64,000 bases of DNA. Source: Agromyces sp. S2-1-8 (GTDB taxonomy: Bacteria; Actinomycetota; Actinomycetes; Actinomycetales; Microbacteriaceae). The notes beneath the pieces are model-generated. The model was not told the DNA's origin. It saw nothing but the letters and a program-made list of their open reading frames with translations, and searched no databases. A program made the translations under genes and the position numbers. The stretch covers positions 558,001-622,000 of the forward strand of contig NZ_JAJOLP010000001.1 in assembly GCF_021129215.1 (NCBI RefSeq), written 5' to 3'. Positions 1 through 63,712 of the stretch are shown one piece after another (within the stretch, counting starts at the first letter, position 1; every line of letters starts with the position of its first letter).

Positions 1-503
1 ACATCCGGATGCCGCCGTCGCACAGCGACGAGGGCCTGCGAGCGGCCCTCCGCATCCGGAGCGAGCGCCCCGACATCGCGATCGTCGTGCTCTCGCAGTA
101 CGTGCAGCGGCGCTACGCGCTCGAGCTGCTCGGGGGCGAGGCATCCAGGATCGGGTACCTGCTGAAGCAGCGGATCGCCGATGTCGGCGCGTTCCGCGAC
201 GACCTCCGCCGCGTCGCCGAGGGCGGCACGGCGCTCGACCCCGAGGTGGTCGCGGTGCTCATCTCGCGCGCCGGGCGCGGCGGCGGCGACGTGCGGCGAC
301 TCACGCGCCGCCAGCGCGAGGTGCTCGCCTACATGGCGGAAGGTCGGAGCAACGCCTGGATCGGGCAACGGCTCGTGCTCACCGAGAAGGCGATCGTGCA
401 GCACACCTCGGGCATCTACGACGCGCTCGGGCTGCCCGTCACGGCCGACGATCACCGCCGGGTGCTCGCGGTGATCCGGTACCTCGACGGCGCGGCCGAC
501 TGA
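1..503 (+). CDS. LuxR-type response regulator, 5' end outside window
   Basis: C-terminal part of a two-component response regulator; the gene begins before the window. The open frame runs in at base 3 and shows the end of a receiver domain: residues I-R-M-P-P directly follow the position where the phospho-acceptor Asp is expected, so that Asp lies just outside. A strand reading IAIVVLSQY and a lysine in GYLLKQR fit beta4 and the conserved beta5 lysine. The last 65 residues form a LuxR/NarL helix-turn-helix starting at LTRRQREVLAYMAEGRSN. The paired sensor kinase is presumably upstream and not visible. Family assignment is firm; the signal and targets are unknown. Confidence 0.9.
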   Translation, partial: IRMPPSHSDEGLRAALRIRSERPDIAIVVLSQYVQRRYALELLGGEASRIGYLLKQRIADVGAFRDDLRRVAEGGTALDPEVVAVLISRAGRGGGDVRRLTRRQREVLAYMAEGRSNAWIGQRLVLTEKAIVQHTSGIYDALGLPVTADDHRRVLAVIRYLDGAAD

Positions 504-646
504 GCGAGGCGTCGCGAGGCCCCGACCCCCGTTCTGGGTGCCGCCGCCGCGGCGAATGGCGACATGGGTCCATGTCGGCGGCGGCGACGCGCGAGGAGAG
601 TGTGCGATGCGCGCCCCTACGCGAGCCACTCCCGGAAGGATCATCC

Positions 647-1567
647 ATGGCTCTGTCGACCTCCGTCCAGATGACGAACGCCGCGCTCAGCGCGGTGCGC
701 ACCGCCGACCGCGTCTCGCCCGCACTCGCCGCGGGCATCGCCGGCCCCATGTTCGAGCGCACGCGCCCGTCGCGCGTCGTGCATCCGAGCGAGCAGCCCG
801 TGCACCTCGCCGCCGAGCGGCACCCGCTGCCGCTGCCGCACGGCGACGGCGTGCTCTACGAATGGGGCACGGGCCCCCGCACCGTTCTGCTGGTGCACGG
901 CTGGCGCGGCCGCGCCTCGCAGTTCGCGCCGATCATCCGCGAGCTGCGCGCCGCGGGCTTCCACCTCGTCGCATTCGACGCACCGGCGCACGGCGACGCG
1001 GCGGGCCGGCGCACCGACATCCGTTCGTGGGTGGAGGCGATCAACCGGCTGCACCTCGAGTACGGCCGCTTCGAGGCGATCATCGGCCACTCGCTCGGCG
1101 CGCTCACGACGATGACCGCGGTGCGCGACGGCGTCTCGACGCGCGGTGTCGTCGGGCTCGCGCCGATGTCGTCGGGCCGCTACCTGTTCGACGCCTTCGC
1201 GCACGGCGTCGGTCTCAGCGAGCAGGCCGCCGCGATCCAGCGCGAGCGCTACACCCGGCGGGTCTTCCCCGACGCGTCCGACCCGTGGCGTCGTTTCGAC
1301 ACGCTCGCCGCACCGCTGCCGGCGTCGGTCGAGCTGCTGCTGCTGCACGACCGTGAAGACCGCGAGATCGACGCCGCGCAGAGCGAGCTGCTGCACGCAG
1401 CGCACGGCGACCGGTCGAGGATGCTGCTGTCCAGCGGATCCGGTCACGTCAGGCTGCTCGGGGCCGACCGCACGCTCGACGCCGTCACGGCCTTCGTCGG
1501 CGGCGGCGTCGCCGCGGTCGACCGCATCGAGCGGGGCGAGGAGCGGAGCGTGCGCACCGCCGCGTGA
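647..1567 (+). CDS. alpha/beta hydrolase
   Basis: A 306-residue cytoplasmic alpha/beta-fold hydrolase. The oxyanion-side motif LLVHGWRG is near residue 83 and the nucleophile elbow GHSLGA has Ser149. A likely acid Asp lies in LLLLHDREDREI and a catalytic His in GSGHVRLLG, so the Ser-Asp-His triad looks complete. The frame is open from 572, but the ATG at 647 is preferred because GGAAGG lies about seven bases upstream, whereas the earlier ATG has no such site. It stands alone between a response regulator and a MATE exporter on the same strand. Substrate cannot be inferred. Confidence 0.85.
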   Translation: MALSTSVQMTNAALSAVRTADRVSPALAAGIAGPMFERTRPSRVVHPSEQPVHLAAERHPLPLPHGDGVLYEWGTGPRTVLLVHGWRGRASQFAPIIRELRAAGFHLVAFDAPAHGDAAGRRTDIRSWVEAINRLHLEYGRFEAIIGHSLGALTTMTAVRDGVSTRGVVGLAPMSSGRYLFDAFAHGVGLSEQAAAIQRERYTRRVFPDASDPWRRFDTLAAPLPASVELLLLHDREDREIDAAQSELLHAAHGDRSRMLLSSGSGHVRLLGADRTLDAVTAFVGGGVAAVDRIERGEERSVRTAA

Positions 1568-1680
1568 GCCGGGCCGGCGCGCAGCCCGAGCGCCGCGCCG
1601 GTTCCCGAAGACGACCGGATGCCGGAGCGCCCCGGCCGGCATCCGGTCGTGTCACCGGCCCGACGTAGGCTCGAGGGCAC

Positions 1681-3102
1681 ATGAATCGCTCCGACGCCTC
1701 CGAACCGGGCACCGCCGGCACCACGGGCTCGTCGACCGACCCGACCGACCCCGCCGCGAGCTCCGCGGCCGCACGGTCGGCGGGGCGCGCCGTCGACCGC
1801 GACATCCTCCGCCTCGCGATTCCCGCGCTCGGCGCGCTCATCGCCGAACCGCTGTTCCTGCTGGCCGACACGGCGATGGTCGGCCACCTCGGTGCGGAGC
1901 CCCTCGCCGGGCTCGGGCTCGCGAGCGCGGTGCTGCAGACGATCATCGGGCTGATGGTGTTCCTCGCCTACGCCACGACGCCCGCGGTCGCCCGCAGGCT
2001 CGGCGCCGGCGACCTGCGCGGCGCGGTCGCGTCGGGCATCGACGGGCTCTGGCTCGCCCTCGGCATCGGCATCGTGCTCGCCGTCGGCGGGTGGTTCGCG
2101 GCACCGTGGCTCGTGGGGCTGTTCGGGGCGACGAGCGAAGTCACGGCCGAGGCATCCACGTACCTGTCGATCTCGATGGGCGGCCTGCCGGCGATGCTGA
2201 TCGTGTTCGCGGCGACCGGACTCCTGCGCGGCCTGCAGGACACGAAGACCCCGCTCTGGGTCGCGGGCATCGGCTTCGCCGTCAACATCGCGCTCAACTA
2301 CGTGTTCATCTACGTCGCGGGGTGGGGCATCGCGGGCTCGGCCGTCGGCACGGTGATCGCGCAGTGGGGCATGGTCGTCGTCTACCTCGTCGTCGTCGCG
2401 ACGCACGCGCGCCGGGCGGGGGCGAGCCCGTGGCCCCACCACGCCGGGGTGCTGCGCGGGGCGAAGTCGGGCGGCTGGCTGTTCGTGCGCACCGCGAGCC
2501 TGCGCGTCGCGCTGCTGCTCGCCACCTGGGCGGCGACCTCGCTCGGGTCGAACGAGCTCGCCGCGTTCCAGGTCGCGATGACGATCTACTTCACGCTCGG
2601 TTTCGCGCTCGACGCGCTCGCGATCGCCGCACAGGCCCTCGTCGGGCGAGGGCTCGGCGCCGGCGACGTCACGGCCGTCCGGCGCGTGCTGCGACGCTGC
2701 ATCGAGTGGGGCATCGGGTCGGGTGCGGCCATCGGGGCGCTGCTCATCGCGCTCGCCTGGGTGCTGCCCGGGCTGTTCACGAGCTCGGCCGAGGTGGCCG
2801 CCCTGCTGCCGCCGGCGCTCGTCGTGCTCGGCCTGTCGGCACCGCTCGGCGGCCTCGTCTTCGTGCTCGACGGCGTGCTCATCGGCGCCGGCGACGCCCG
2901 CTACCTCGCCTGGACGGGCCTCGTGAACCTCGCCGTGTTCGTGCCGCTCGCCCTCGGCGTCGCGTCGGTGGCCCCGCCGGGTGCCGCGGGGCCCGCCTGG
3001 CTCATGGCGGCGTTCGCCATCGGCTACCTGGCGGCGCGCGCGGTGACCCTCGGGCTCCGGGCGCGCGGCGAGCGGTGGATGGTCACGGGCGCGCCCGCCT
3101 GA
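1681..3102 (+). CDS. MATE family efflux transporter (DinF/NorM type)
   Basis: A 473-residue polytopic membrane protein with about twelve hydrophobic segments after a Ser/Thr/Asp-rich N-terminal tail of about 35 residues. DILRLAIPALGALIAEPLFLL and DTAMVGHLG, near residues 40-65, are the usual MATE helix 1-2 signature, and GLLRGLQDTKTPLW is the conserved loop in the first half. Such proteins export cationic drugs or metabolites using Na+ or H+ gradients; the length and pattern resemble the DinF branch. It ends in a convergent gap facing the M20 hydrolase. Family is clear, substrate unknown. Confidence 0.92.
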   Translation: MNRSDASEPGTAGTTGSSTDPTDPAASSAAARSAGRAVDRDILRLAIPALGALIAEPLFLLADTAMVGHLGAEPLAGLGLASAVLQTIIGLMVFLAYATTPAVARRLGAGDLRGAVASGIDGLWLALGIGIVLAVGGWFAAPWLVGLFGATSEVTAEASTYLSISMGGLPAMLIVFAATGLLRGLQDTKTPLWVAGIGFAVNIALNYVFIYVAGWGIAGSAVGTVIAQWGMVVVYLVVVATHARRAGASPWPHHAGVLRGAKSGGWLFVRTASLRVALLLATWAATSLGSNELAAFQVAMTIYFTLGFALDALAIAAQALVGRGLGAGDVTAVRRVLRRCIEWGIGSGAAIGALLIALAWVLPGLFTSSAEVAALLPPALVVLGLSAPLGGLVFVLDGVLIGAGDARYLAWTGLVNLAVFVPLALGVASVAPPGAAGPAWLMAAFAIGYLAARAVTLGLRARGERWMVTGAPA

Positions 3103-3220: not shown

Positions 3221-4450
3221 CTACCCGACCGACGCACCGAGCCACTCGCGCGCGGCGGCGACGAGGGCCGCGACGCCGCTCTCGAGGGTCGGGTCGATGA
3301 CCGGCGCGAACTTCGGCGAGTGGTTCGAGGGCAGGTTCTCGGGCAGTCGCCCCGCGGCGAGCGCGGCCGGGTCGAACAGCGACGGGTCGAATCCGCCGAG
3401 GAACCAGTAGACGAGCGGCACGCCCGCGGCGGTCGCGAAGACGCCGACGTCCTCGCTGCCCGAGACGACGCCCGGGTCGAACACCCGCCCCTCGCCGAGC
3501 GCACGGCGCAGCGCCGCGGCGGTGCGCTCCGAGGCATCCGCGTCGTTGACGGTGGCCGGGAACCGCGCGCCGTAGTCGAAGTGGGGGTCACGAGGGGCGC
3601 CCGAGGCGGCCGCTTCGCCCGTCGCGATGCGCTCGATCGCGGTGAGCACCTTCGTGCGCACCGACTCGTCGAAGCTGCGCACGTTGATGCCGAGCATCGC
3701 CTCGGACGGGATGATGTTGTGCTTCGTGCCGGCGTGCAACTGCCCGACGGTGACGACGGCGGCATCGGTCGCGGCGATCTCGCGGGCGACGACCCCCTGC
3801 AGCCGCACGGTGATCGCCGCGGCGAGCAGCACCGGGTCGATCGTCGCCTCGGGGCGCGAGCCGTGGCCGCCGACGCCGTGCACGCGCACCGTCAGCTCGT
3901 CGGCCGCCGCCATCGCGACGCCGGCGTGCACGCCCGCGAATCCCGCGGGCAGCGGGGCGACGTGCTGGCCCAGCACGATGTCGGGCCGGGGCACGCGGTC
4001 GAAGAGGCCGTCGGCGACCATCGACTCGGCACCGCCGCCGAGCTCTTCGGCGGGCTGGAAGACGACGACGAGCGCGCCCGACCACCGGGAGCGCTCGGCG
4101 GCCATCCGTTCGGCCGCACCGAGCAGGCACGTCACGTGCACGTCGTGGCCGCATGCGTGCATCACCGGCACGTCGTTGCCGTCGGCGTCCGTCCCGCGTG
4201 CGGTGCTGGCGTATGGCAGTCCGGTGTCCTCGAGCACGGGCAGCGCGTCCATGTCGGCGCGCAGCAGCACCGTCGGGCCGGCGCCGTTCGCGAGCACGCC
4301 CGCGACGCCGGTGGTGCCGAGCCCCGTCACGACGTCGAAACCGAGCCCGGTCAGGGTCTCCGCGACGATGGCGGCGGTGCGGTGCTCCTGGAACGAGAGT
4401 TCGGGGTTGGCGTGCAGGTCGCGGTAGATCGCTGCGAGGTCGAGGCTCAT
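3221..4450 (-). CDS. M20 family amidohydrolase / N-acyl amino acid hydrolase
   Basis: A 409-residue metallo-amidohydrolase of the M20D (hippurate hydrolase, indole-acetyl-amino-acid hydrolase, N-acyl amino acid deacylase) type. Visible motifs are LLRADMDALPV, the metal-binding HACGHDVH, the catalytic and metal-binding pair in QPAEELGGGAESM, LGQHVAP, and a late GSEDVGVFA. It starts at an ATG 33 bases after the stop of the upstream LacI-type gene, so the two are probably one transcript and this enzyme is the likely target of that regulator. It would release amino acids from N-acylated or small peptide substrates in the cytoplasm; the exact substrate is unknown. Confidence 0.9.
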   Translation of the reverse strand: MSLDLAAIYRDLHANPELSFQEHRTAAIVAETLTGLGFDVVTGLGTTGVAGVLANGAGPTVLLRADMDALPVLEDTGLPYASTARGTDADGNDVPVMHACGHDVHVTCLLGAAERMAAERSRWSGALVVVFQPAEELGGGAESMVADGLFDRVPRPDIVLGQHVAPLPAGFAGVHAGVAMAAADELTVRVHGVGGHGSRPEATIDPVLLAAAITVRLQGVVAREIAATDAAVVTVGQLHAGTKHNIIPSEAMLGINVRSFDESVRTKVLTAIERIATGEAAASGAPRDPHFDYGARFPATVNDADASERTAAALRRALGEGRVFDPGVVSGSEDVGVFATAAGVPLVYWFLGGFDPSLFDPAALAAGRLPENLPSNHSPKFAPVIDPTLESGVAALVAAAREWLGASVG

Positions 4451-4483: not shown

Positions 4484-5560
4484 TCAGCGGGCGGGCGGCG
4501 GGGCGGTCGTGTCGCCGACGTGCAGGGTGCTCGTGAAGCAGACCGACTCGGGCGACTCGCCCGCGAGCAGGCTCACGACCGCCTCGCCGGCGGCCCGCCC
4601 CTTCGCGACCGACGGCTGCGAGAGCGTCGTCAGGTCGTGCTGCAGCCCGTCGACGCGGATGCCGTCGAACCCGATGACGCTGAGCTCGGCCGGCACGGCG
4701 ATGCCGAGCTCCTCGGCGGCGCGGATCACGCCGGCCGCGAGCAGGTCGCTCTGCGCGATGATCGCAGTCGGACGCGTCGCGGGGTCGGCGAGCAGCGCGC
4801 GGGCGGCCTCGAGGCCCTCTTCGATCGAGCTCGCCCCGGCGACCTGGCCGGTGATGTCGGGGAAGATCTCGCGGGCCCCCGCGAGCCGGTCGCGTGCGGT
4901 CGCCGCGGTGCCCGACTGCTCGAGCTCGGGGGTGAGCGGCCCGCGCGTTCGCGCCGCGTCGAAGGGCAGCGTCACGAGTGCGACGCGCGTGTGCCCGAGC
5001 TTGCGCAGGTAGTCGGCGCCCCGCCGGGTGGCCTGGTGGTTGTCGATCGAGATCTCGGGCAGGCCCTCGCCGGTGTCGCCCTCGATGGCGACGGCGGGGA
5101 TGCCTCGGCGCCGGAGCGCCTCGATCGACACCGCCAGTCGCGGGCTGCACCCGATGAGCACGACCGCATCGACGGGGGCGCTCTCGATGTTGACGGCGTT
5201 CTCGCCGGGTTCGCCGGTGTCGGTGAGCAGCAGCAGGCCGGCGCCGAGCGGGGCGATGCCCTCGGTGATGCCGTCGAGCATCTGGATCTTCACCGGGTCG
5301 AGGAACGCCGCTCGCACCCGCTCCTCGAGCACGACGCCGACGATGCCCGACCGCCCCTGCCGCAGCGAGCGGGCGCGCGGGTCGGGCCCGCCGTAGCCGA
5401 GCGCGGCGGCCGCGTCGAGCACGCGCTGCTTCGTCGCGTCCGAGACGGGGCCGGACCCGCTGAATGCGAGCGAGGCCGTCGACGCGGAGACGCCGGCCTT
5501 CGCGGCGACGTCGGCGAGCGTCGGCCGGGAGGCGGCCGGGGCTGCGGGTTCGGGCTGCAT
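4484..5560 (-). CDS. LacI family transcriptional regulator
   Basis: A 358-residue LacI/GalR repressor. The HTH begins TLADVAAKAGVSASTASLAFSG around residue 13, followed by the hinge helix (RARSLRQGRSG) and a periplasmic-binding-like effector domain ending in IGFDGIRVDGL...LTTLSQP. The frame is open further upstream, but this ATG puts the HTH at the normal N-terminal position. It probably heads an operon with the M20 hydrolase. A dyad with a central CG, CGAATCGATTCG, lies 17-28 bases upstream of the start and is a likely autoregulatory operator. The same core recurs inside a 26-bp palindrome upstream of the MFS gene at 14294, suggesting a second target. Confidence 0.9.
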   Translation of the reverse strand: MQPEPAAPAASRPTLADVAAKAGVSASTASLAFSGSGPVSDATKQRVLDAAAALGYGGPDPRARSLRQGRSGIVGVVLEERVRAAFLDPVKIQMLDGITEGIAPLGAGLLLLTDTGEPGENAVNIESAPVDAVVLIGCSPRLAVSIEALRRRGIPAVAIEGDTGEGLPEISIDNHQATRRGADYLRKLGHTRVALVTLPFDAARTRGPLTPELEQSGTAATARDRLAGAREIFPDITGQVAGASSIEEGLEAARALLADPATRPTAIIAQSDLLAAGVIRAAEELGIAVPAELSVIGFDGIRVDGLQHDLTTLSQPSVAKGRAAGEAVVSLLAGESPESVCFTSTLHVGDTTAPPPAR

Positions 5561-6179: not shown

Positions 6180-7364
<1,185 letters not shown>

Positions 7365-9777: not shown

Positions 9778-10875
9778 TCACAGCGTGCGCACCGCGCGCG
9801 GCGGTGCGTCCAGATCGGTCGAGCCGCCCGGGACGAGCGACCAGGGGAATTCGTGCAGGCGGGGCTCGGTCGCGCCCGAGTCGAGGGCTCGCGCGACGAT
9901 GATCTCGGCCTGCCTGCGATAGAAGTCCGTCGGGCCGACGGTGGTGAGGGTCGGGGCGATCGACTGCGCGTCGGGGGTGTTGCCGACGCCGATCACGGCG
10001 ACGTCGTGCGGCACCCTGAGGCCCAGCATGTGCGCCGCGTTGATCGCCGCGATCGCGGCGAAGTCGGTCGTCGCGTAGATCGCCGTGGGGCGGTCGTCGC
10101 GCGAGAGCAGGGCGACCGCCGCGGCGAACGCGCTCGCCTGCGTGTTCGCGTAGGTCGCGGTGTGCTCGGGCACCACGGGCAGCCCGCGCTCGCGCATGCG
10201 AGCGAGGTACGGGGTGTACCGCGAGTGCTCGGGTGCACGCACGGCGTCCTCGGCCACGAGGCATCCGATCGCGGTGTGCCGTTCGAGCAGGTGGTCCATC
10301 GCGAGGTAGCAGCCGGGGATCGCGTCGGAGCGGATCACGTCGTAGCCGTCGGGCTCGAGCGTCTCGCTGAAGACGACGAGCCGCTGGCCGCGTTCGGCGA
10401 GCGCCTGCAGGTGGCGCCTGACCTCGTCGCTGCCGACCGCGGCGTCGAGGTAGGCGACGTCGCTCTCGACCCGTTCGAGCGCGGCGTACCAGTCGCCGTC
10501 GGCCAGGATCAGCGTCGTGAGGCCGTGCCGGTTCGCCTCGTCGTTGACCGCGGCCGCGACGGCGAGCGACCACGGGTCGCTCAGCATGTGCAGCGAGAGC
10601 TGCACGGTGTCGCTGCGGCCGGTGCGAATCGTGCGGGCGGCGCGGTTGGGCCGGTAGTTCAGCTGCTCGGCGGCCTCGAGCACGCGCTTGGCCGTCGCCT
10701 CGGCGACGCCCGAGCCGCCGCCGGAGCGGCCCGAGAACACGTACGACACCGTCGCCGTCGAGACGCCGGCGAGCTCGGCGACCATCCGCAGCGTGGGGCG
10801 GCGGCGCACGTTCGTGCCCCCTGCCGGGCCGGAGCTTCCGTGCGCCGTCGAGCCTCCCGCATTCGCCCGCACCAT
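9778..10875 (-). CDS. LacI family transcriptional regulator of the sugar ABC operon
   Basis: A 365-residue LacI-type regulator. After a Gly/Ser/Ala-rich N-terminal extension of about 27 residues comes the HTH, PTLRMVAELAGVSTATVSYVFSG, the hinge (NYRPNRAARTIRTGRSD) and the effector-binding domain. The ATG at 10875 is preferred over the preceding GTG because AAGGGG is then seven bases upstream. It lies within an operon of binding protein, two permeases, this gene and an oxidoreductase, overlapping closely with the permease end. It is the natural candidate for the 30-bp palindrome upstream of the operon at 14085-14114. The long extension before the HTH is unusual, so a later start is possible. 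Confidence 0.88.
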   Translation of the reverse strand: MVRANAGGSTAHGSSGPAGGTNVRRRPTLRMVAELAGVSTATVSYVFSGRSGGGSGVAEATAKRVLEAAEQLNYRPNRAARTIRTGRSDTVQLSLHMLSDPWSLAVAAAVNDEANRHGLTTLILADGDWYAALERVESDVAYLDAAVGSDEVRRHLQALAERGQRLVVFSETLEPDGYDVIRSDAIPGCYLAMDHLLERHTAIGCLVAEDAVRAPEHSRYTPYLARMRERGLPVVPEHTATYANTQASAFAAAVALLSRDDRPTAIYATTDFAAIAAINAAHMLGLRVPHDVAVIGVGNTPDAQSIAPTLTTVGPTDFYRRQAEIIVARALDSGATEPRLHEFPWSLVPGGSTDLDAPPRAVRTL

Positions 10876-10879: not shown

Positions 10880-11782
10880 TCACCCCTTCGTTCCCGAGAA
10901 CGCGATGCCCTGGATGAACTGCTTCTGCAGGATCATGAAGGTGACCAGCATGGGCAGCGTCGCCAGCAGTGCGCCCGCCATCAGCACAGGGTAGTCAGTG
11001 CCGTGCAGGCCGACGAGCTGCGACAGGCCCACCGAGAGCGGCATCTTCTCGGGGTCGGTCGTGACCACGAGGGGCCACAGCAGGTCGTTCCACGACCACA
11101 GCACCGTGAACACCGTGAGGGCGACGATGCCGGGCTTGGCGAGCGGCACCATCACGCGCCAGAACGTCTGCCAGGGGTTCGCACCGTCGATGCGGGCCGC
11201 CTCCTCGAGCTCGGCCGGCATCGACATGAAGAACTGCCGCATGAGGAAGGTGCCGAAGGCGCTGAAGATGCCGGGCACGATGAGCGCCTGCAGGGTGTTG
11301 AGCCAGCCCAGGTTCTGGATGATCTCGTACTGCGGCAGCAGGTAGAGCTGCGAGGGCACCATGAGCACCGAGAGGAACAGCACGAAGACGACGTTGCGGC
11401 CCCTGAAGGGGATGCGCGCGAAGGCGTAGCCCGCCATCGTGCACAGCACCACCTGGCCGAGGGTGCGGCCGACGGTGAGCAGCACCGAGTTGAGGAACAT
11501 CTGGCCGAACGGCATCGACTCGAAGACCTCGGCGAAGTTCGTCCACACCCACGGATCGGGGAACACCACGGGCGGCACCTGCACCGAGTCCTGGAACGTC
11601 TTGAACGCGGTCAGCGTCTGCCACACGAACGGGAAGACCATGAGCACCGCGCCGCCGGCGAGCAGCAGGTGCACGACCCAGTGGCCGCGGTTGCGGCCGC
11701 CGCGGGTGCGGGCGGGGCGAGGGGCGGATGCCTCGGGCGGGGCGCCCGTCATGGCACGGGTGTCGACGGCGAGGTCACTCAT
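10880..11782 (-). CDS. carbohydrate ABC transporter permease (MalG type)
   Basis: A 300-residue inner-membrane subunit with six predicted helices and a variable cytoplasmic N-tail rich in Ala, Arg and Pro. The EAA loop that docks onto the ATPase reads EEAARIDGANPWQTFWRVMVPLAKPG (split here at the family pattern EAA...G...P). It overlaps the MalF-type gene by eight bases and is followed almost immediately by the LacI gene. No ATPase is encoded in this operon, so it probably uses a shared MsmK/UgpC-like ATPase, possibly the one at 46719-47795. Sugar specificity unknown. Confidence 0.93.
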   Translation of the reverse strand: MSDLAVDTRAMTGAPPEASAPRPARTRGGRNRGHWVVHLLLAGGAVLMVFPFVWQTLTAFKTFQDSVQVPPVVFPDPWVWTNFAEVFESMPFGQMFLNSVLLTVGRTLGQVVLCTMAGYAFARIPFRGRNVVFVLFLSVLMVPSQLYLLPQYEIIQNLGWLNTLQALIVPGIFSAFGTFLMRQFFMSMPAELEEAARIDGANPWQTFWRVMVPLAKPGIVALTVFTVLWSWNDLLWPLVVTTDPEKMPLSVGLSQLVGLHGTDYPVLMAGALLATLPMLVTFMILQKQFIQGIAFSGTKG

Positions 11783-14293: not shown

Positions 14294-15550
14294 ATGACCG
14301 AGACCTCCGGCAACGCCGCGCCGACGACGCGCCCCGCTCACGAGCTCGTCGCCTGGCGCAACGCGATCTTCGCGATCTTCTTCCTCTCGGGGCTCAGCAT
14401 GGCGAGCTGGGTCGCGCGCATCCCCGCGATCCGCGACGACACCGGGCTCAGCACCCAGGGCGTCGGGCTCGTCATCCTCGGCGGCTCGATCGGCTCGATC
14501 CTCGGTCTCGTCGCGGCCCCCTGGCTGCTCGCGCGCCTGGGCGCCCGCCTCGGCATGATCGCCGCACTCGTGACCGTCTCGGTCGGGCTCGTGTTCGTCG
14601 GCGTCGGCGGCTCCCTGCTGCCCGCCGTGCCCCTCGTCGTCATCGGGCTCGTGCTCTTCGGCCTCGGCAACGGCGCGGTCGACGTGATGATGAACGTCGA
14701 GGGCGCCGAGGCCGAGCGCGAGATCGGCCGCACGGTGATGCCGCTCATGCACGCGTTCTTCTCGTTCGGCACGGTCGCGGGTGCCGCGGTCGCCGCCGCC
14801 GCGTCGGCGATCGACGTGCCGGTGTCGATGCACCTCGGCGTGATGGCACTGCTCATCGCCGCCAGCATCCTCGTGGCCGTGCGCTACGTGCCGCTGCGCG
14901 CCGAGGTCGGCGACGACACGCACGCCGGCGGACCCCGGCCGCCGTGGACCGAGCGGCTCAAGGCGAACCTCGCCGTGTGGGGCGACGTGCGGCTGCTGCT
15001 CATCGGCGTCATCATGCTCGGCATGTCGTTCGCCGAGGGCTCGGCCAACGACTGGCTCGCCCTCGCCGTCGTCGACGGCCACGGCTTCGACGCCACCACC
15101 GGCGCGCTCATGTTCGGCGTTTTCACGGTCTCGATCACGGCCGGCCGGGTCGTCGGCGGTCCGATCCTCGACCGGTTCGGGCGCGTGCCCGTGCTGCGCA
15201 CGCTCGCGATCATCGGCATCGCCGGGCTCTCGCTCTTCATCTTCGGCACCGAGACGTGGATGCTCGTCGTGGGCACCGTGCTGTGGGGCCTCGGCTCGTC
15301 GCTCGGGTTCCCGGTCGGCATGTCGGCCGCGGCCGACCACCCGACCGACTCGGCGGCGCGCGTGAGCGCCGTCGCGATCATCGGCTACTGCGCCTTCCTT
15401 GCCGGGCCACCGCTGCTCGGCTTCATCGGGCAGCACTTCGGCATCCTCAACGCGCTCCTCGTGATCCTCGTGCTGCTCGTGCTCTCGGCGCTGGCGGCGC
15501 CGGCCGCCCGCGAGCAGACGCGGCCCGCGGCATCCGGCTCGCAGGCCTGA
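14294..15550 (+). CDS. MFS transporter (YbjJ-like)
   Basis: A 418-residue major facilitator with twelve predicted helices. IFAIFFLSGLSMASWVARIPAIRD at residues 23-45 is the hallmark of the YbjJ-like branch, and LFGLGNGAVDVMMNVEGAE lies in helix 4-5 as in that group. The cytoplasmic loop RAEVGDDTHAGGPRPPW separates the halves. It is transcribed divergently from the sugar ABC operon and has a 26-bp dyad 49-74 bases upstream. YbjJ-type proteins are putative sugar or small-molecule transporters with no settled substrate. Confidence 0.9.
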   Translation: MTETSGNAAPTTRPAHELVAWRNAIFAIFFLSGLSMASWVARIPAIRDDTGLSTQGVGLVILGGSIGSILGLVAAPWLLARLGARLGMIAALVTVSVGLVFVGVGGSLLPAVPLVVIGLVLFGLGNGAVDVMMNVEGAEAEREIGRTVMPLMHAFFSFGTVAGAAVAAAASAIDVPVSMHLGVMALLIAASILVAVRYVPLRAEVGDDTHAGGPRPPWTERLKANLAVWGDVRLLLIGVIMLGMSFAEGSANDWLALAVVDGHGFDATTGALMFGVFTVSITAGRVVGGPILDRFGRVPVLRTLAIIGIAGLSLFIFGTETWMLVVGTVLWGLGSSLGFPVGMSAAADHPTDSAARVSAVAIIGYCAFLAGPPLLGFIGQHFGILNALLVILVLLVLSALAAPAAREQTRPAASGSQA

Positions 15551-15594: not shown

Positions 15595-16290
15595 GTGCGT
15601 CTCGTCATCGCCCGCTGCTCCGTCGATTACGCGGGGCGGCTGCAAGCCCACCTCCCGCTGGCCACCCGGCTGCTGATGGTGAAGGGCGACGGCAGCCTGC
15701 TGGTGCATTCCGACGGCGGCAGCTACAAGCCCCTCAACTGGATGAGCCCGCCGTGCACACTCGAGACGGCCGAGCCCGACGACGAGCAGCGCGAGGCCGG
15801 CATCGCCGAACTCTGGACGGTCACGCACAAGAAGACCGCCGACCGCCTCATCGTCTCGATCCACGAGGTGCTGCACGACACCTCGCACGAGCTCGGCATC
15901 GACCCCGGCCTCCAGAAGGACGGCGTCGAGGCGCACCTGCAGAAGCTGCTCGCCGAGCAGATCGAACTGCTCGGCGAGGGACACCGGCTGGTGCGCCGCG
16001 AGTACATGACGGCGATCGGCCCGGTCGACATCCTGGCGACGGATGCCTCGGGCGCGAGCGTCGCGGTCGAGCTGAAGCGACGCGGCGACATCGACGGCGT
16101 CGAGCAGCTCACCCGCTATCTCGAGCTCATGAACCGCGACCCGCTGCTCGCGCCGGTGTCTGGCGTGTTCGCCGCGCAGGAGATCAAGCCGCAGGCGCGC
16201 ACGCTCGCCGAGGACCGCGGCATCCGCTGCCTCGTGCTCGACTACGACGCCATGCGCGGCGTCGACGACGGGCATGCTCGGCTGTTCTGA
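15595..16290 (+). CDS. nucS: endonuclease NucS (EndoMS), non-canonical mismatch repair
   Basis: A 231-residue NucS/EndoMS protein, the actinobacterial and archaeal enzyme that cuts both strands at G-T, G-G and T-T mismatches and replaces MutS-MutL. The N-terminal half carries [16 protein letters not shown] and the beta-rich dimerisation domain; the C-terminal RecB-like nuclease has [32 protein letters not shown], in which D, E and K form the catalytic site. The GTG start gives the family's usual N-terminus. A stem-loop 27 bases after the stop may terminate it. A strong marker that the host is an actinobacterium. Confidence 0.96.
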
Positions 16291-21050: not shown

Positions 21051-21566
21051 TCAGCGCACCAGTCGCACCGTGGAGATGTCCCAGGGCTCGAACGGCAGCT
21101 CGACCCCGTCGGGTTCGAACCCGTTGCGCCGGTAGAACGCGCGGGCCCTCGTCTCACCCGCCATCGCCCAGAGGAACCCCGGCCGGGAACCGATCGCGGC
21201 GTCGAGCAGCGCCTGGCCGAGGCCCGAGCCCTGGTACGCATCGAGCAGGTACAGCCCCTTCAGTTCGAGGTCGCGTGGCGCGTCGGGCTCCTCCGTGCGA
21301 TCGGCCGGTCTCGCGTCGGCGAAGCCGACGATGCGTTCGCCGTCGACGGCGACGACGACGGTGCGCTCGCCGCGCACCGATTCGTCGACGATGCGCTCCC
21401 ACGCCTCGCTGCGCCGGTCGAGCGTCCACGCCTCGATGCGTTCCCGTGCGACGGCGCCCGACGCGATGTAGGTCGACTGGTGGCTCTCCCAGTGCATGCG
21501 CGCGATGAACGGCGCATCGCCCGACCGGGCGTCTCTGATGACCGGGGATGCCGCGGAGCTCGCCAT
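21051..21566 (-). CDS. GNAT family N-acetyltransferase
   Basis: A 171-residue acetyltransferase. PVIRDARSGDAPFIARMHWESHQSTYIASG opens the GNAT fold, LYLLDAYQGSGLGQALLDAAI carries the acetyl-CoA pyrophosphate loop (Q-G-x-G-x-G/A type), and ARAFYRRNGFEPDG is the closing motif. Position 21566 gives the start MASSAASPV. It stands between a TetR regulator and a tyrosine phosphatase on the same strand, with 69 bases on one side, so it might be an independent unit. Acceptor substrate unknown. Confidence 0.88.
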   Translation of the reverse strand: MASSAASPVIRDARSGDAPFIARMHWESHQSTYIASGAVARERIEAWTLDRRSEAWERIVDESVRGERTVVVAVDGERIVGFADARPADRTEEPDAPRDLELKGLYLLDAYQGSGLGQALLDAAIGSRPGFLWAMAGETRARAFYRRNGFEPDGVELPFEPWDISTVRLVR

Positions 21567-45457: not shown

Positions 45458-46714
45458 TCAGGCGCAGAGCGCCATGATGCGGCGGTCGGCGAGCACCAGG
45501 TAGTGGGGCCCGTCAGCCGGGTCGGCCGCGAACGACTCCCGCGCGGCACGCACCGATCGCCGTCGGCCGAAACCGTCGACGAGCACGAGCCCCTCGGCGT
45601 CGACCGCGACGACCTCGTCGCCGAGACGCACGAGGGCGGGTGCGCGCATGAGCTCGGGCATGAGCACCGTGCCGTCGAAGCGACCGCTGCCCGTGACGGC
45701 GGTGCGACCGGCGCGCACCCCCTCGAGGATGGCCTCGGCCGAGGCATCCTCGGCGGCGACCCACGTGGTGGGGGTGCCGGGTCGTTGCGGCTCCTCGAGC
45801 ATGTGCACGTCGCTGCCGCCGAGCAGGGTCGCGCCGGCGGGCCAGGTGCGGAACCAGGCGAACGGCGCCGTCGAGATGAGCTCGAGGAACCACGTCGCGT
45901 GCCACAGCTCGACCGCCGCGGGGCGGCGTTCGAGACGGTGCAGCCACGAGCAGTCGCCCGAGATCGGGTGGTTGATGCTCAGGATGCCTCCGCGCCGGTC
46001 GACCTCGTCGACCCAATGCTGCGCGGGCTCGCGGAAGTCGATCCAGCCGATCTCGCCGAACGCGTTCGCGTGGCCGCGATGGGTCGTGACCTCCTGGCCC
46101 GGCAGCAGCGTGATGCCGTGCTTCGCACCCTCGCCGGGCAGGTGGGCGTGGTGGCTCACGGTGTTGTGGTCGGTCACCGCCATGAAGTCGAGGCCGGATG
46201 CCACGCCGAGTGCCGCGAGCCCGCCGATCGGGAGTCGGCCGTCGGAGTGGATCGTGTGCCCGTGGAAGTCGCCGGCGAACCAGGTCAGTCCCGCCTCGGC
46301 CGGGAGCCCGCGATCGCTGCCGCGCACCTCGCGGGCGACCGGTGCGGCCTCGGGCACCGGTGGCACCGGTCGCGACGAGGGCATCGTGATCTCGACTTCG
46401 ACCTCGACGCCCTGGAGCGGCACGCGGTGGAGACCGAGCACGACGTTCCACTCCCCCGGCTCGAGTTCGCCCGGAAGGTACCCGGGCGTGGCATCCGTCG
46501 CCGTGATGACGTACTCGGTGCGCGCGCCGCCCGACCAGCCGCGCCAGCCGCCGGCACCGGCGCAGCCGAGGTCGATGCCGGACTCGCTCGGGTCGAAGCG
46601 GATGACGACCTCGAGCGAGTCGGTGCCCGCGGGCACCTCGAACGGCACGTTCAGGTACCGATCGGCGTTCTGCACGTCGACCGTGACGGGGACGGTGCGG
46701 CGGATCGTCGTCAC
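45458..46714 (-). CDS. CehA/McbA family PHP metallohydrolase
   Basis: A 418-residue protein with an N-terminal beta-sandwich (about residues 1-135: PVTVDVQNADRYLNVPFEVP, EYVITATDATPGYLPGEL, EWNVVLGLHRVPL) and a PHP-type metallohydrolase domain starting WFAGDFHGHTIHSDGRLPI. Further ligands appear in DFMAVTDHNTVSHHAH, LSINHPISGDC and LLGGSDVHM. CehA-like enzymes hydrolyse esters or phosphoesters with Mn/Fe/Zn. No signal peptide is seen. The GTG start lies four bases before the ATPase stop in this operon; it is likely an esterase or phosphoesterase acting on the imported glycoside. Confidence 0.87.
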   Translation of the reverse strand: MTTIRRTVPVTVDVQNADRYLNVPFEVPAGTDSLEVVIRFDPSESGIDLGCAGAGGWRGWSGGARTEYVITATDATPGYLPGELEPGEWNVVLGLHRVPLQGVEVEVEITMPSSRPVPPVPEAAPVAREVRGSDRGLPAEAGLTWFAGDFHGHTIHSDGRLPIGGLAALGVASGLDFMAVTDHNTVSHHAHLPGEGAKHGITLLPGQEVTTHRGHANAFGEIGWIDFREPAQHWVDEVDRRGGILSINHPISGDCSWLHRLERRPAAVELWHATWFLELISTAPFAWFRTWPAGATLLGGSDVHMLEEPQRPGTPTTWVAAEDASAEAILEGVRAGRTAVTGSGRFDGTVLMPELMRAPALVRLGDEVVAVDAEGLVLVDGFGRRRSVRAARESFAADPADGPHYLVLADRRIMALCA

Positions 46715-51086: not shown

Positions 51087-52301
51087 TTACGAGGCGGATG
51101 CCTCGGTGCCGGCGCCGATCGGCGTGCCGGCGGAATCGGCGAGGGCGCGGAGCATCCGCTGGCCCACGACGATGTCGGCGGCGCCCTCGTCGACCGAGGG
51201 GCCCGGTGCCGGACGACCTGCGACGAGCGCCGCGAAGGCGCGGAGCTCGTGCTCGAACGCCTCCTCCTGCATCCACCGCGTCTCGGAGCGCCGGGCGCCG
51301 AGGCGGTCGGCGTTCTCGACGACGGTGAGCACGGTGGGCACGTTGAGCACGTACGGCACCGCGAAGACGAGCGAGATGCTGCCCTCCTCGTGGTGGAACG
51401 TGACCGTCTCGCGGTACTCGGGGTAGCGCGGGATGAAGTGCCAGTCGACCGACCAGGGCACGTCGGCGTGCTCGGCGAGGGTGCCGCCCAGGCTCAGCGA
51501 TCCCGGGAACCCGCCCGTGTGACGGGCCCGGTCGACCGCCCCGATGCCGCCCACGAGGTACCGCAGCAGGCCGATGTCGTGCACGATCGAGCCGAGCACG
51601 ACGTTCGTGTAGAGCTTCGGCAGGTCGCCCGCCGCCTCGCCGATCGCGGTCCCGACCGAGGCATCCGTCGCGGCTGTGAGGGCCGCGAGCAGGTCGGCGG
51701 GCACGTCGGCGGGCGGAGCCTGCAGGTTCGCGAACGCGAGCTGGGCCCCGTCGGCCGGATGCAGCACCTCGACCGTGACCGCGCGCAGCTCGACGCTCTG
51801 CAGCAGGGCCTTCACCTCGGCCGAGGCCGGGTCGTGCTCCTTCATGTAGCCGACCCGCACCCAGTCGGCGAGGTCGACGCCGCGCTCGGCGGCGAGGGCG
51901 CGGAGCGACTCGACCTCGGCGAGCGAGAACGCGAGGGGCTTCTCCGCGAGCACGCGGATGCCGGCGCCGACGAGCTTCGCGACGTCGGGCGCGTGCGAGC
52001 CGGAGGTCGCGAGCACGGCGCCGTCGACGGCGACCTCGCCCGCGACGACGGCGTCGATGAGCGCGTCGATCGAGTCGAACGCGGCGACGCCCGTGCCGGA
52101 TGCCTCGGCCATGCCCCGCGCGCGCGACGTTGAGAGATCGACGACGGCGGTGAGGGCGATGCGGTCGGCGTTGCGCCGGATGAGCGGGAGGTGCACGCTC
52201 TGGCTGATGGCGCCGAGGCCGATGACGGCGAGGTTCACGCGCTCGTGGGTCGCGGCATCCGCCTGCTCGCTCGTGCGGTCGGGGGCGTCGAAGCCGGTCA
52301 T
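51087..52301 (-). CDS. Gfo/Idh/MocA family oxidoreductase of the glycoside locus
   Basis: A 404-residue NAD(P)-dependent sugar oxidoreductase. LAVIGLGAISQSVHLPLI is the Rossmann motif, LAEKPLAFSLAEVESL the EKP motif with catalytic Lys, and NVVLGSIVHDIGLLRYLVGG the substrate-site H-D region. Its ATG overlaps the TGA of the IolE-like gene by four bases. In combination with a TIM-barrel isomerase, such enzymes make and process 3-keto-glycosides, or act as inositol dehydrogenases (IolG). Which of these applies cannot be told, though the adjacent mannosidase and separate iol operon make both attractive. Confidence 0.9.
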   Translation of the reverse strand: MTGFDAPDRTSEQADAATHERVNLAVIGLGAISQSVHLPLIRRNADRIALTAVVDLSTSRARGMAEASGTGVAAFDSIDALIDAVVAGEVAVDGAVLATSGSHAPDVAKLVGAGIRVLAEKPLAFSLAEVESLRALAAERGVDLADWVRVGYMKEHDPASAEVKALLQSVELRAVTVEVLHPADGAQLAFANLQAPPADVPADLLAALTAATDASVGTAIGEAAGDLPKLYTNVVLGSIVHDIGLLRYLVGGIGAVDRARHTGGFPGSLSLGGTLAEHADVPWSVDWHFIPRYPEYRETVTFHHEEGSISLVFAVPYVLNVPTVLTVVENADRLGARRSETRWMQEEAFEHELRAFAALVAGRPAPGPSVDEGAADIVVGQRMLRALADSAGTPIGAGTEASAS

Positions 52302-53212
52302 GCGAACCACCGCCGCAGGCGCTCGCGGTTGGCCGCTTGATCCGTTCGGGCGCGGTCGACGTCGGCCGCGCTCTGCAGGATGACGTCCTGCTCGACGACG
52401 AGCCAGCCGGCGTAGCCCGAGTCGACGATCTGGTCGACGATGCGGTCGACCTCGAGGTCGCCGTCGCCGAGGGCCACGAACACACGGCGCTGCCAGACGT
52501 CGCGCATCGGGTCGTCGGAGCCGGCGGCCGAGGCGAGCACCGAGCGATCGGCGTCCTTGAGGTGCACGTGGTTGATGCGGTCCGCCCAGCGCGAGAAGTC
52601 GGCGACGGGGTCGCCGCCGCCGATGAGCAGGTGGCCGGTGTCGAAGGTCAGGTCGATGTCGGTGTCGGCGAGCAACCGTTCGATCTCGTGCGGAGTCTCG
52701 ACGTACGTGCACGCGTGGTGGTGGAACGTCGGTTCGAGGCCGGCGGCGCGGGTCGCATCGGCGGCGCGCTGCACGCGGGCGGCGAACCGGGCCCACCGGT
52801 CGTCGTCGAGCTCGAGCTCGGGGGCGCCGCCCGGGCGGGCCTTGCGCTCGGCGGAGCCGGAGTCGGCGATCGTGGGCTTCGGCGCGAGCGCGCCGGCGGG
52901 CGCTGCGGCAGCGGCGGCGGCGAACAGGTCGAGCACGTGCGCGAGCCCCGCGAAGGATGCCTCGAACTCGTCGTCATCGGCGGCGAAGGGCAGGTCGACC
53001 CATCCGCCTGCGAGGGCCAGGCCGTGTCGGCCGAGCAGGGCGGGCAGCGTCTCGCGGTCGCCGAAGAGGCCGACGGGGCCGAGATCGATGCCGTCGTACC
53101 CCGCCTCGGCGACCCAGCCGGCGAGTTGCTCACCGTCGGGCAGCGGAACGAGATCGGGAATGGACAGTTCGAAGACGCCGTAGCTGACGGGGGCGTTCGC
53201 TGTTCGGATCAA
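52298..53212 (-). CDS. IolE-like sugar phosphate isomerase/epimerase (AP_endonuc_2 TIM barrel)
   Basis: A 304-residue TIM-barrel protein of the xylose-isomerase-like superfamily that includes inosose dehydratase IolE and 3-keto-sugar isomerases. Seen are ANAPVSYGVFEL at the first strand, GYDGIDLGPVGLFGD, the metal ligands in FHHHACTYVETPHE, DIDLTFDTGHLLIGGGD and NHVHLKD, and the closing GWLVVEQD. The start is a TTG: a GAGAGGAA site lies six bases ahead and no ATG fits. It is the first gene of the operon. IolE is missing from the iol operon in this window, so it might fill that role, but a keto-glycoside role is equally open. Confidence 0.86.
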   Translation of the reverse strand: MIRTANAPVSYGVFELSIPDLVPLPDGEQLAGWVAEAGYDGIDLGPVGLFGDRETLPALLGRHGLALAGGWVDLPFAADDDEFEASFAGLAHVLDLFAAAAAAAPAGALAPKPTIADSGSAERKARPGGAPELELDDDRWARFAARVQRAADATRAAGLEPTFHHHACTYVETPHEIERLLADTDIDLTFDTGHLLIGGGDPVADFSRWADRINHVHLKDADRSVLASAAGSDDPMRDVWQRRVFVALGDGDLEVDRIVDQIVDSGYAGWLVVEQDVILQSAADVDRARTDQAANRERLRRWFA

Positions 53213-53299: not shown

Positions 53300-53338
53300 C
53301 AAAGTCTGTGGATCGTCCGCATCCGAGCCCGACTCCGA

Positions 53339-54401: not shown

Positions 54402-54411
54402 CGATATATCG
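54402..54411. promoter_or_regulatory. small dyad in the ars divergent promoter
   Basis: CGATATATCG is a perfect 10-bp palindrome between TTGACA (54391-54396) and the larger inverted repeat. It repeats the TCGATAT word and may be a second contact site for ArsR. Confidence 0.4.
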
Positions 54412-54416
54412 CGGCA

Positions 54417-54446
54417 TCCTGATATCGAAGTTCATCGATATCAGGA
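54417..54446. promoter_or_regulatory. ArsR operator: 12-6-12 inverted repeat
   Basis: TCCTGATATCGA (54417-54428) and TCGATATCAGGA (54435-54446) are exact complements separated by AGTTCA. The right arm runs into the AGGAGG ribosome site of the flavoprotein gene, and a TTGACA lies 20 bases upstream of the left arm, so bound ArsR would block this promoter. Strong candidate operator for the adjacent arsR. Confidence 0.75.
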
Positions 54447-58402: not shown

Positions 58403-58418
58403 GCGGATGCCTCGCCCA

Positions 58419-59197: not shown

Positions 59198-59785
59198 ATG
59201 GTTGAGAGGGATGCCTCGGCCGCGCGCTGCTCGATCGTCGAGGCCGACGGCGTGCACTGCTCGCGGCCCGTCGCTGCCGGCACGCCGATCGCGCTCTGCG
59301 CGGGGCACCTGCTCGTCGCCTACGACTGGGTCGCGCGTGAGGTCGGCGAGCTCGACCTGCTGCCGGGGCCGTGTCCGGCGTGCGGGGCCCGGGTCGGAGT
59401 GCACTACCCCTCCGGTTGGATCTGCGCCGACTGCGAATGGCGCTACGGCGAGCTGCCCGATCGAGCGCTCGGCGACGACCCCGTCGAGGTCGTCTACTAC
59501 CTGCGCTATCGCGACCGGGTGAAGATCGGCACCTCGGCGAACCCGCGGCAGCGCGTCGCGAGCCTGCCGCACGACGAGGTGCTCGCGTTCGAACGCGGCG
59601 GCCGGCGACTCGAACGGCGTCGGCACGAGCAGTTCGCGCGGTACCGCGGTGCCGGCACCGAGTGGTTCGACGTGCACGACGTGCTGCTCGAGCACATCGC
59701 CGGGCTCGCCGTCGGTGTCGACGACCCCTGGGCGCAGTACGACCGCTGGGTGAGTCGGCATCTCGCCCGGCCGCGGCTCGACTGA
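59198..59785 (+). CDS. GIY-YIG / T5orf172-type nuclease domain with zinc-binding N-terminus
   Basis: A 195-residue protein. The N-terminal 95 residues hold several Cys/His clusters (RCSIVEADGVHC, CAGH, CPACGARVGVHYPSGWICADC) that could bind zinc. Residues about 100-160 form a T5orf172/GIY-YIG-like domain: VVYYLRYRDRVKIGTSANPRQRVASL, with the conserved G-T and R, and ARYRGAGTEWFDV with the Glu-W tail. The ATG at 59198 has TACCGT seven bases upstream. Such domains cut or bind DNA in phage and mobile contexts, but here the gene is chromosomal-looking. Exact role unknown. Confidence 0.78.
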   Translation: MVERDASAARCSIVEADGVHCSRPVAAGTPIALCAGHLLVAYDWVAREVGELDLLPGPCPACGARVGVHYPSGWICADCEWRYGELPDRALGDDPVEVVYYLRYRDRVKIGTSANPRQRVASLPHDEVLAFERGGRRLERRRHEQFARYRGAGTEWFDVHDVLLEHIAGLAVGVDDPWAQYDRWVSRHLARPRLD

Positions 59786-62441: not shown

Positions 62442-62517
62442 GGGCCTGCCCTCCCGACCTCGTCGACGTGAAGCGCTCTCCGTCCCCACGATACGCCGAG
62501 GCCGCGCGCGTTGCGGA

Positions 62518-62535
62518 GCGACGGAGGAGCGTCGC
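62518..62535 (-). terminator. small hairpin in the mmsB leader gap
   Basis: GCGACG-GAGGAG-CGTCGC forms a six-base stem with a six-base loop in the 155-base space between mmsB and the alcohol dehydrogenase. It may end or modulate transcription between the two genes; no T-run follows. Confidence 0.3.
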
Positions 62536-62596
62536 GAGTCGGTCGATCGCGCCGGTCTCGAGACGCCGCCGCGCGCCCCCGCGACCGGGGAGACGC

Positions 62597-63712
62597 TCAG
62601 AACCGGATGACCTGCCGGATCGCCCGCCCCTCCGCGAGGGTGTCCATCGCCGCGTTCACGTCGTCGAGCTCGACGGTCGACGAGATGAGCGCCTCGACGG
62701 GCAGCCGGCCCTGCCGCCAGAGTTCGGCATAGCGCGGGATGTCCCGCGACGGGATCGCCGACCCCAGGTACGACCCGATGATCGTGCGCGCCTCGGCCGT
62801 CACGGTCAGCGGCGCGATCTGCGAGACGGCCGATGCGGGCGGCAGCCCCACGGTGACCGTTCGTCCGCCGGGTGCGGTCAGCGCGAACGCCGTCTCGAAT
62901 GCGCGCGGATGGCCCGCCGCCTCCACGACGAGCGGAGCCCGCAGCCCTGCGGCCACCGCCTCGTCGGGCGTGTACGCCGCGTCGGCGCCGAGCTCGAGCG
63001 CCCGCTCGAGCTTGTCGTCGACGCCGTCGACGCCGATGACCCGGCCGTAGCCGAGCGACGCCGCCGTGATGAGCGCGGCCATGCCGACGCCGCCGAGCCC
63101 GACCACGACGATGTCGTCGCCCTCGCGCGCGGCACCCGCGTTGAGCACGGCTCCGCCCCCGGTGAGCACGGCGCACCCGAGCACGGCCGCGACCTCGGGC
63201 GGCACATCGTGCCCGACGACCACCGCCGAGCGCCGGTCGACGACCGCGTGCGTCGCGAACCCCGAGACCCCGAGATGGTGGCGCACGGGCTCGCCGTCGC
63301 GGTGGAGGCGCACGTCGCCGTCGAAGAGCGTGCCCGCCGTGTTCGCGGCGGTGCCCGGAGTGCACGGCAGGGCGCCGCCGGCGAGGCATCCCTCGCACTC
63401 ACCGCAGCGAGGCAGGAAGGCCATCACCACCCGGTCACCCACCGAGAAGCCGGCCGCGGATGCCTCGGCGCCGAGCTCCTCGACGATGCCGGCGGCCTCG
63501 TGGCCGAGCAGCATCGGCACCGGGCGCGGGCGATTGCCGTCGACGACCGAGAGATCCGAGTGGCAGATGCCCGCCGCCTCGATGCGCACGAGCAGCTCGT
63601 CGGGACCGGGGCGTTCGAGCTCGAGCTCGCCGATCGTGATCGGCCGCGACTCGGCGAAGGGCCGGGAACGCCCGAGCTCCTCGAGCACGGCCCCGCGGAT
63701 GCGGATCGACAT
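62597..63712 (-). CDS. zinc-dependent alcohol dehydrogenase
   Basis: A 371-residue class III-like medium-chain dehydrogenase. The catalytic zinc site includes GICHSDLSVVDG and MLLGHEAAGIVEELG, the structural site CGECEGCLAGGALPC, and the NAD motif VVVGLGGVGMAALITAA. It resembles S-(hydroxymethyl)mycothiol or aryl-alcohol dehydrogenases. It lies between mmsA and mmsB in the same direction, 13 bases after the mmsA stop, so a role in branched-chain or related aldehyde metabolism is plausible but not certain. Confidence 0.9.
   Translation of the reverse strand: MSIRIRGAVLEELGRSRPFAESRPITIGELELERPGPDELLVRIEAAGICHSDLSVVDGNRPRPVPMLLGHEAAGIVEELGAEASAAGFSVGDRVVMAFLPRCGECEGCLAGGALPCTPGTAANTAGTLFDGDVRLHRDGEPVRHHLGVSGFATHAVVDRRSAVVVGHDVPPEVAAVLGCAVLTGGGAVLNAGAAREGDDIVVVGLGGVGMAALITAASLGYGRVIGVDGVDDKLERALELGADAAYTPDEAVAAGLRAPLVVEAAGHPRAFETAFALTAPGGRTVTVGLPPASAVSQIAPLTVTAEARTIIGSYLGSAIPSRDIPRYAELWRQGRLPVEALISSTVELDDVNAAMDTLAEGRAIRQVIRF

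Follow-up and report, generated by a model that had tools for sequence, protein, structure and literature searches.

A frequent ten-base word of Agromyces as the dialect of a putative DNA uptake sequence in Microbacteriaceae

Sequence-based discrimination in DNA uptake is attributed by name to two families only, the Neisseriaceae and the Pasteurellaceae, in the parts of a recent article available to us (PMC12616744, 2025). The DNA uptake sequence (DUS) of the Neisseriaceae is a word of 10-12 bases with more than 1000 copies. Its dialects within the family differ by one or a few bases, a genome can hold two of them, and some family members have no obvious word; inverted DUS pairs with terminators are numerous in those genomes that have DUS dialects (PMC3630211, as far as the available sections go). 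The same sections describe the uptake signal sequence (USS) of the Pasteurellaceae, whose hosts are Gram-negative, as an abundant short word of 9 bases, AAGTGCGGT or ACAAGCGGT, with subtypes within the family (PMC3630211). Here, a stretch of 64,000 nucleotides from the chromosome of Agromyces sp. S2-1-8, hereafter the window, is analysed for the recurrent, non-palindromic word GGATGCCTCG. It is proposed, with a probability of about three in four, that GGATGCCTCG, with its preferred context CGGATGCCTCGG and its second spelling GGATGCCGCG, is the Agromyces dialect of a putative Microbacteriaceae DNA uptake sequence. With the DUS, the Agromyces word shares the copy number, the dialects within a family, two spellings in one genome, inverted pairs able to form stem-loops and members of the family that show no evident word; with the USS it shares the abundance and the subtypes. 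It differs from the DUS in sequence and in its Gram-positive, high-GC hosts, and in that the own genome carries Flp/Tad genes and lacks PilM_2 of classical type IV pili. No literature on uptake words in Microbacteriaceae, Agromyces or Actinobacteria was found among open-access papers.

An earlier, sequence-only reading of the window had counted 28 copies, 17 on the forward and 11 on the reverse strand, where chance would give well under one. The count is borne out: the exact copies span positions 137 to 63467, and 100 dinucleotide shuffles give a mean of 0.27 and a maximum of 2. The core GGATGCC is found 62 times in the window against 12.2 expected. The whole genome, 4.10 Mb in two contigs (the chromosome C1 and the plasmid C2), holds 1,386 copies, 688 forward and 698 reverse, and the reversed word, used as a control, gives 0/0. 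The enrichment is, therefore, not an effect of the window. In 444 kb of the chromosome, 159 copies were counted against 5.3 expected from an order-3 Markov model, and the preferred context CGGATGCCTCGG was found 58 times against 0.5. A comparison of all one-mismatch variants with this model showed the word to be sharp, as only GGATGCCGCG is strongly raised (66 against 8.0; 69 against 8.4 in the own-genome sample), with weaker rises for GGATGCCTCC (12 against 1.2) and GGATGTCTCG (10 against 1.7). Apart from codon periodicity, there is no conservation past one base on each side, and because of this GGATGCCTCG is not taken for part of a longer repeat. The earlier reading had also singled out a stretch from 16.2 to 20.5 kb. 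Positions 16226 to 20491 do lack the core GGATGCC, but the gap is not unusual: with ten-mers 2.5 kb apart on average, about 17% of the gaps would reach 4.4 kb by hand calculation, and the stretch was dropped as a special feature.

The relation of the word to genes was assessed with a gene caller of the analysis's own, whose start codons are uncertain. By these calls, 25 of the 28 copies are genic; intergenic copies do exist, though three of them (26679, 58405, 59209) where two gaps had been claimed. A codon-preserving shuffle of the window genes, which the sequence-only reading had named as the decisive test, does not reproduce the count, with a mean of 0.54 and a maximum of 4 (200 shuffles) against the 25 observed. 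Likewise, synonymous codons shuffled within genes over 504 kb give a mean of 3.85 and a maximum of 10 (200 shuffles) against 127 genic sites. The GAT and GCA codons that the word was said to force are real, as 100 of 117 genic sites in the 444 kb lie in one phase, read as G-GAT-GCC-TCG in sense or C-GAG-GCA-TCC in antisense. A bias of this kind would follow if the word were tolerated by the host at places where an Asp-Ala-Ser or Glu-Ala-Ser is nearly harmless. The density of the word is 0.67 per kb in intergenic DNA (49 sites) and 0.30 per kb in genes (127 sites), a 2.3-fold difference. With genes ranked by G+C content at third codon positions (GC3), only the lowest quartile is lower, at 0.20 as against 0.29-0.39 per kb, and a general depletion in low-GC3 genes was dropped since the drop is confined to that quartile.

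The word is symmetric along the chromosome. As the first 5 kb of C1 yielded no dnaA, strand bias was examined over all possible origins; its maximum of 0.5625 equals the median for random strands (95% 0.597). Along the presumed replichores of the sampled chromosome, the copies divide 92 to 84 between the two directions. The suggestion of a polar, chromosome-orienting word was thus rejected, there being no strand bias whatever origin is guessed. The plasmid C2, read whole, carries two copies, at a chance level of 0.6, while the chromosomal density would give 28.8 (P 1.4e-10). The chromosome is, therefore, enriched and foreign DNA is not, as judged on this one plasmid. C2 also contains runs of at least 10 G on one strand (L028, L036), with 14 overlapping G10 matches. 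When positions 51000-53300 of the window were aligned in 14 Agromyces, 23 sites were found at 12 distinct positions. The gain and loss of sites and their patchy positions among relatives fit a gain by mutation and recombination, although this is no proof of it.

Where two copies lie close together, the order GGATGCCTCG...CGAGGCATCC, which can form a hairpin, is favoured. Within 60 bp, the own genome has nine pairs in this order (seven intergenic, two genic), one in the opposite inverted order and one direct. Among 12 genomes, each counted with its own words, 52 hairpin-order pairs and 16 opposite-order pairs lie within 45 bp (binomial 1.4e-5), the chance level being about 15 per orientation; G108 and C2 contributed no pairs to this count, from which G071, G112, G115, G122 and G132 were left out. 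All five intergenic pairs that were folded give stable stems, with energies of -18 to -49 kcal/mol and z from -3.0 to -8.9. As with DUS, intergenic stem-loops are thus formed by inverted pairs, and a role as terminators is predicted for them. In three Agromyces (L097:2984, L098:2995, L101:2783), an inverted pair in the opposite order occupies a shared location, some 500 bp upstream of the comEC match and probably inside comEA.

The enrichment extends beyond the genome to the whole genus. All 60 Agromyces genomes (own included) contain GGATGCCTCG, with 104-1,549 copies and a median of 435; the genus sum is 16,547 forward and 16,444 reverse. Judged by eye, the reversed controls lie at 0-4. Outside the genus, one other family member has 9 copies; for 19 other families of the order, the 39 genomes searched have 0-27. 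Related words were counted de novo in 200-300 kb each for five relatives and 100 kb each for twelve more. Two spellings were found together in G046 (GGATGCCTCG 94 against 3.1, GGATGTCTCG 56 against 1.3), in G002 (GGATGCCGCG 83 against 5.4, GGATGGCGCG 38 against 4.3) and in G005 (GGATGACG 118 against 33.6, GGATGCCGCG 32 against 3.4). The Agromyces relative G017 has GTGGATGCCG (67 against 3.4), and the sister genus, represented by G060, has GGATGCCGC (158 against 12.5). In further genera, words like GGATGCCGCG occur in G104, G161, G177 and G203, while GGATGCG is raised in G215 (165 against 48) and GGAGGCG in G207 (158 against 57.5). The small genome G108 (1.43 Mb, 51% GC) has ATCGGTGTT instead, 21 against 1.3. 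No clear related word was found de novo in G071, which belongs to another family.

Two further spellings were counted over whole genomes. AGGAGGCGC is raised in four of four g65 genomes (1,079, 1,612, 1,474 and 1,463 copies; reversed controls 283, 162, 135 and 168). Of the other genomes among the 249 of the family, G153 comes next, with 522 copies against 325 for its control, and G106 has 151 against 43. AACACCGAT is dense in three of four g40 genomes, with 270, 152 and 148 copies in 1.3-1.4 Mb. The fourth shows a weaker signal (43); for this word, the reversed control serves poorly, as it is rare in GC-rich genomes. The degenerate word GGATGNCKCG was also counted in the 249 family genomes. 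Taking one genome per genus, the count is fivefold the reversed control or more in 51 of 85 family genera, tenfold or more in 30 and twentyfold or more in 16, where about twofold is the usual background of this imperfect control. Of the 296 genomes examined in the class, 282 lie outside the family; by eye, most rows show a ratio of 1 to 4. Of 17 outside-family rows, mostly the highest looking, 16 are below fivefold; the small genome G572 has 14 against 2. As with DUS and USS, dialects are thus found within one family, the case being weaker for g40 and g64. In G132 of genus g64 (L143-L147), CGGATCC[GC] is raised, with CGGATCCG at 102 against 26.6; being palindromic, this word may represent either a dialect or a modification target.

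DNA uptake machinery, as DUS and USS hosts have it, is present in the own genome in the form of ComEA, ComEC and Tad/Flp genes. At L035, ComEA (SLBB and HHH domains) adjoins ComEC (Competence and beta-lactamase-fold domains), whose best relatives in named genomes, in a list that may leave the own genome out, all fall in Agromyces (Microbacteriaceae; eight of eight loci, 60-68% identity). Pilus-type ATPases are encoded at three places. One of these, the Flp/Tad cluster L165, comprises a TadA-like ATPase, a DUF4244 protein with a Flp-like segment, and TadE- and TadG-like proteins slightly below the Pfam cut-off; it adjoins topoisomerase- and thymidylate-kinase-like genes, named from the starts of their translations only. 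Candidate minor pilins were also listed, the kind of protein to which the receptor ComP belongs. Another stretch, L163 (C1:164001-176000), is poorly coding and carries a pilus-type ATPase and a Flp pilin, with no GGATGCCTCG in 12 kb; it is perhaps a recent arrival. In the actinobacterium Micrococcus luteus, Flp pili are required for transformation, and this organism, like the present host, has comEA and comEC, tad clusters and a similar Flp pilin; the Flp sequence printed there resembles the Flp-like segment of L165 (PMC6370729, in the sections available). M. luteus belongs to another family of the same order, and those sections mention no uptake word. Two candidate correlates of the word were dropped. 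ComEC is nearly universal and, therefore, does not discriminate, while PilM_2, the marker of a classical type IV pilus, is independent of density, as the densest genome (G046) and a poor one (G005) are both positive.

A sharp, symmetric and chromosome-wide word, together with its dialects, hairpins and the uptake genes of its hosts, matches DUS and USS, and it is on these grounds that GGATGCCTCG is read as an uptake sequence. The match holds point for point save for preferential uptake itself, which we infer. According to this model, an extracellular reader, most likely a Flp/Tad minor pilin or a ComEA-linked protein, would bind the word in double-stranded DNA released from lysed kin. The pilus would carry the DNA to ComEA, a single strand would pass through ComEC, and RecA would recombine it. 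Word-bearing DNA would be taken up more often, and recombination would in turn add and preserve chromosomal copies. Should the specificity of the reader shift, the word would follow, giving rise to genus dialects, and inverted pairs may persist between genes because they could also serve as transcription terminators.

Several observations weigh against this proposal. The binding, the biased uptake and the identity of the reader are deduced, and for the reader there are only candidates. Of 249 family genomes, 245 have ComEC, as do 95 of 100 relatives, genomes lacking the word included. PilM_2 is absent from the own genome and found in only seven of 60 genus members. The spacing of GGATGCCTCG is near random and without clusters (coefficient of variation, CV, 0.89), and orthologous sites are only weakly retained, in 20 of 37 cases in related pairs against 15.0 expected from composition-matched 10-mers, the pairs being non-independent. 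Close pairs in the same orientation also occur in the 12 genomes (12 and 18). Within the family, the word of G132 (genus g64) is a palindrome, GGATCCG (187 against 70.8), G112 has only a weak GGATCCC-like word, and G115 and G122 showed no clear related word de novo in samples of 100 kb. Further, 16 of the 85 genera lie below 3 times the control for GGATGNCKCG. The ratio of G115 is 18-fold through a low control, yet no clear word was found there de novo, so the ratios overstate some genera.

Other explanations have to be considered as well. Chi words and FtsK-orienting polar sequences (KOPS) are short, frequent and non-palindromic like GGATGCCTCG, but they are strand-biased, and GGATGCCTCG is not. 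A Chi-like word, read on one strand by a resection helicase-nuclease of the AdnAB, AddAB or RecBCD type, would be frequent, non-palindromic and chromosome-wide, and it would vary between species as Chi words do. However, Chi words have 5-8 bases and GGATGCCTCG has ten; Chi is strand-biased in E. coli, whereas no origin gives GGATGCCTCG such a bias; and hairpin pairs would be unexpected. None of the 60 genus members has RecC, nor has G060, AddAB and AdnAB not having been searched. The missing strand bias and the lack of RecC thus disfavour the Chi-like role suggested earlier, which is considered quite unlikely. The word might instead be bound by a regulatory protein or by one that organises or segregates the chromosome (KOPS-, Noc- or nucleoid-protein-like), which would agree with its chromosome-wide occurrence and its lack of enrichment on the plasmid. 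The absence of strand bias excludes a polar word of the KOPS type, though, and both the near-random spacing without clusters (CV 0.89) and the excess of the hairpin orientation speak against such a protein; respelling at the level of genera would require repeated change of a core DNA-binding protein. This explanation is, therefore, held to be improbable.

It can also be asked whether the word is a modification or self-marking target of a methyltransferase or of a defence system like BREX (bacteriophage exclusion), kept at high density. Non-palindromic words are usual for some methyltransferases, and genus g64 has the palindromic CGGATCC[GC]; however, targets of this type are not known to accumulate 250-fold above chance, and such a role would leave the hairpin pairs and the graded dialects unexplained. 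We regard it as very unlikely. The last explanation, and one for which hardly any room is left, is a by-product of codon or dipeptide preference, of mutation bias or of a dispersed mobile repeat. It would account for the single reading phase of most genic copies (100 of 117), but it fails the codon shuffles (3.85 against 127 observed), and the word occurs in both orientations, 2.3 times more densely between genes than within them, and is enriched outside the window. Hence, among the roles put forward by the sequence-only reading, that of an uptake signal gains strong, if indirect, support from the dialects, the hairpins, the plasmid, the absence of strand bias and the com and Tad genes, while the Chi-like, orientation, modification and mutational roles fit less well.

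The sites of both spellings in the window are collected in the table. Three other repeats were met in the relatives. In G017 (L061, L062), GTATCGAGACC occurs 24 times on both strands, all within two of the ten 20 kb stretches sampled, and is a clustered interspersed repeat, unrelated to the uptake-like word. In G005 (L070:4096-16450), four inverted CGTCACGTTTG pairs, 36 bp apart and with kilobases between pairs, make up a small dispersed inverted-repeat element. In G161 (L114, L116), repeats with CTCAGGGCTT and CACGCTGGCT reach 12 and 13 copies in 100 kb, all of them in two of five stretches. A search of viral contigs with one window protein found no relative.

Table. Positions of the two spellings in the window (gene context by the gene caller of the analysis)
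Word	Position	Strand	Context
GGATGCCTCG	137..146	-	genic, antisense
GGATGCCTCG	2148..2157	-	genic, antisense
GGATGCCTCG	3530..3539	-	genic, sense
GGATGCCTCG	5098..5107	+	genic, antisense
GGATGCCTCG	6861..6870	+	genic, antisense
GGATGCCTCG	10257..10266	-	genic, sense
GGATGCCTCG	11726..11735	+	genic, antisense
GGATGCCTCG	16041..16050	+	genic, sense
GGATGCCTCG	20492..20501	+	genic, antisense
GGATGCCTCG	25522..25531	-	genic, sense
GGATGCCTCG	26679..26688	+	intergenic
GGATGCCTCG	31414..31423	-	genic, antisense
GGATGCCTCG	31546..31555	+	genic, sense
GGATGCCTCG	36662..36671	+	genic, sense
GGATGCCTCG	37689..37698	+	genic, sense
GGATGCCTCG	39194..39203	+	genic, sense
GGATGCCTCG	40732..40741	-	genic, sense
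GGATGCCTCG	42812..42821	-	genic, sense
GGATGCCTCG	43499..43508	+	genic, antisense
GGATGCCTCG	45740..45749	-	genic, sense
GGATGCCTCG	51096..51105	+	genic, antisense
GGATGCCTCG	51657..51666	-	genic, sense
GGATGCCTCG	52098..52107	+	genic, antisense
GGATGCCTCG	52955..52964	+	genic, antisense
GGATGCCTCG	58405..58414	+	intergenic by this gene caller
GGATGCCTCG	59209..59218	+	intergenic by this gene caller
GGATGCCTCG	63382..63391	-	genic, sense
GGATGCCTCG	63458..63467	+	genic, antisense
GGATGCCGCG (second spelling)	6426..6435	-	
GGATGCCGCG (second spelling)	7280..7289	+	
GGATGCCGCG (second spelling)	15526..15535	-	
GGATGCCGCG (second spelling)	16216..16225	-	
GGATGCCGCG (second spelling)	21546..21555	+	
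GGATGCCGCG (second spelling)	30267..30276	-	
GGATGCCGCG (second spelling)	52251..52260	-	
GGATGCCGCG (second spelling)	54410..54419	-	

Taken together, it seems rather probable that the Gram-positive Microbacteriaceae practise sequence-selective uptake, with a spread word, genus dialects and a Flp/Tad- or ComEA-linked receptor unrelated to ComP; the core would have been respelled from GGATGCC to GGAGGCG, and one small-genome genus would use the unrelated-looking ATCGGTGTT. Rhodoluna lacicola (Microbacteriaceae) and Aurantimicrobium photophilum are naturally transformable, and the constructs used carried the strain's own flanking DNA; in the available portion of that article, an uptake word is not discussed, and the term 'motif' is absent from the text (PMC11577799). 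Since two members of the freshwater clades are thus published as transformable, the reading of GGATGCCTCG as an uptake sequence is directly testable. If it is true, this would be a third, unrelated case, Gram-positive and with Flp/Tad pili, and the barrier to gene exchange would have arisen repeatedly. The family would lend itself, over dozens of genera, to a natural experiment on how dialects split, and a practical rule would follow, namely to add the host's word when transforming environmental actinobacteria.

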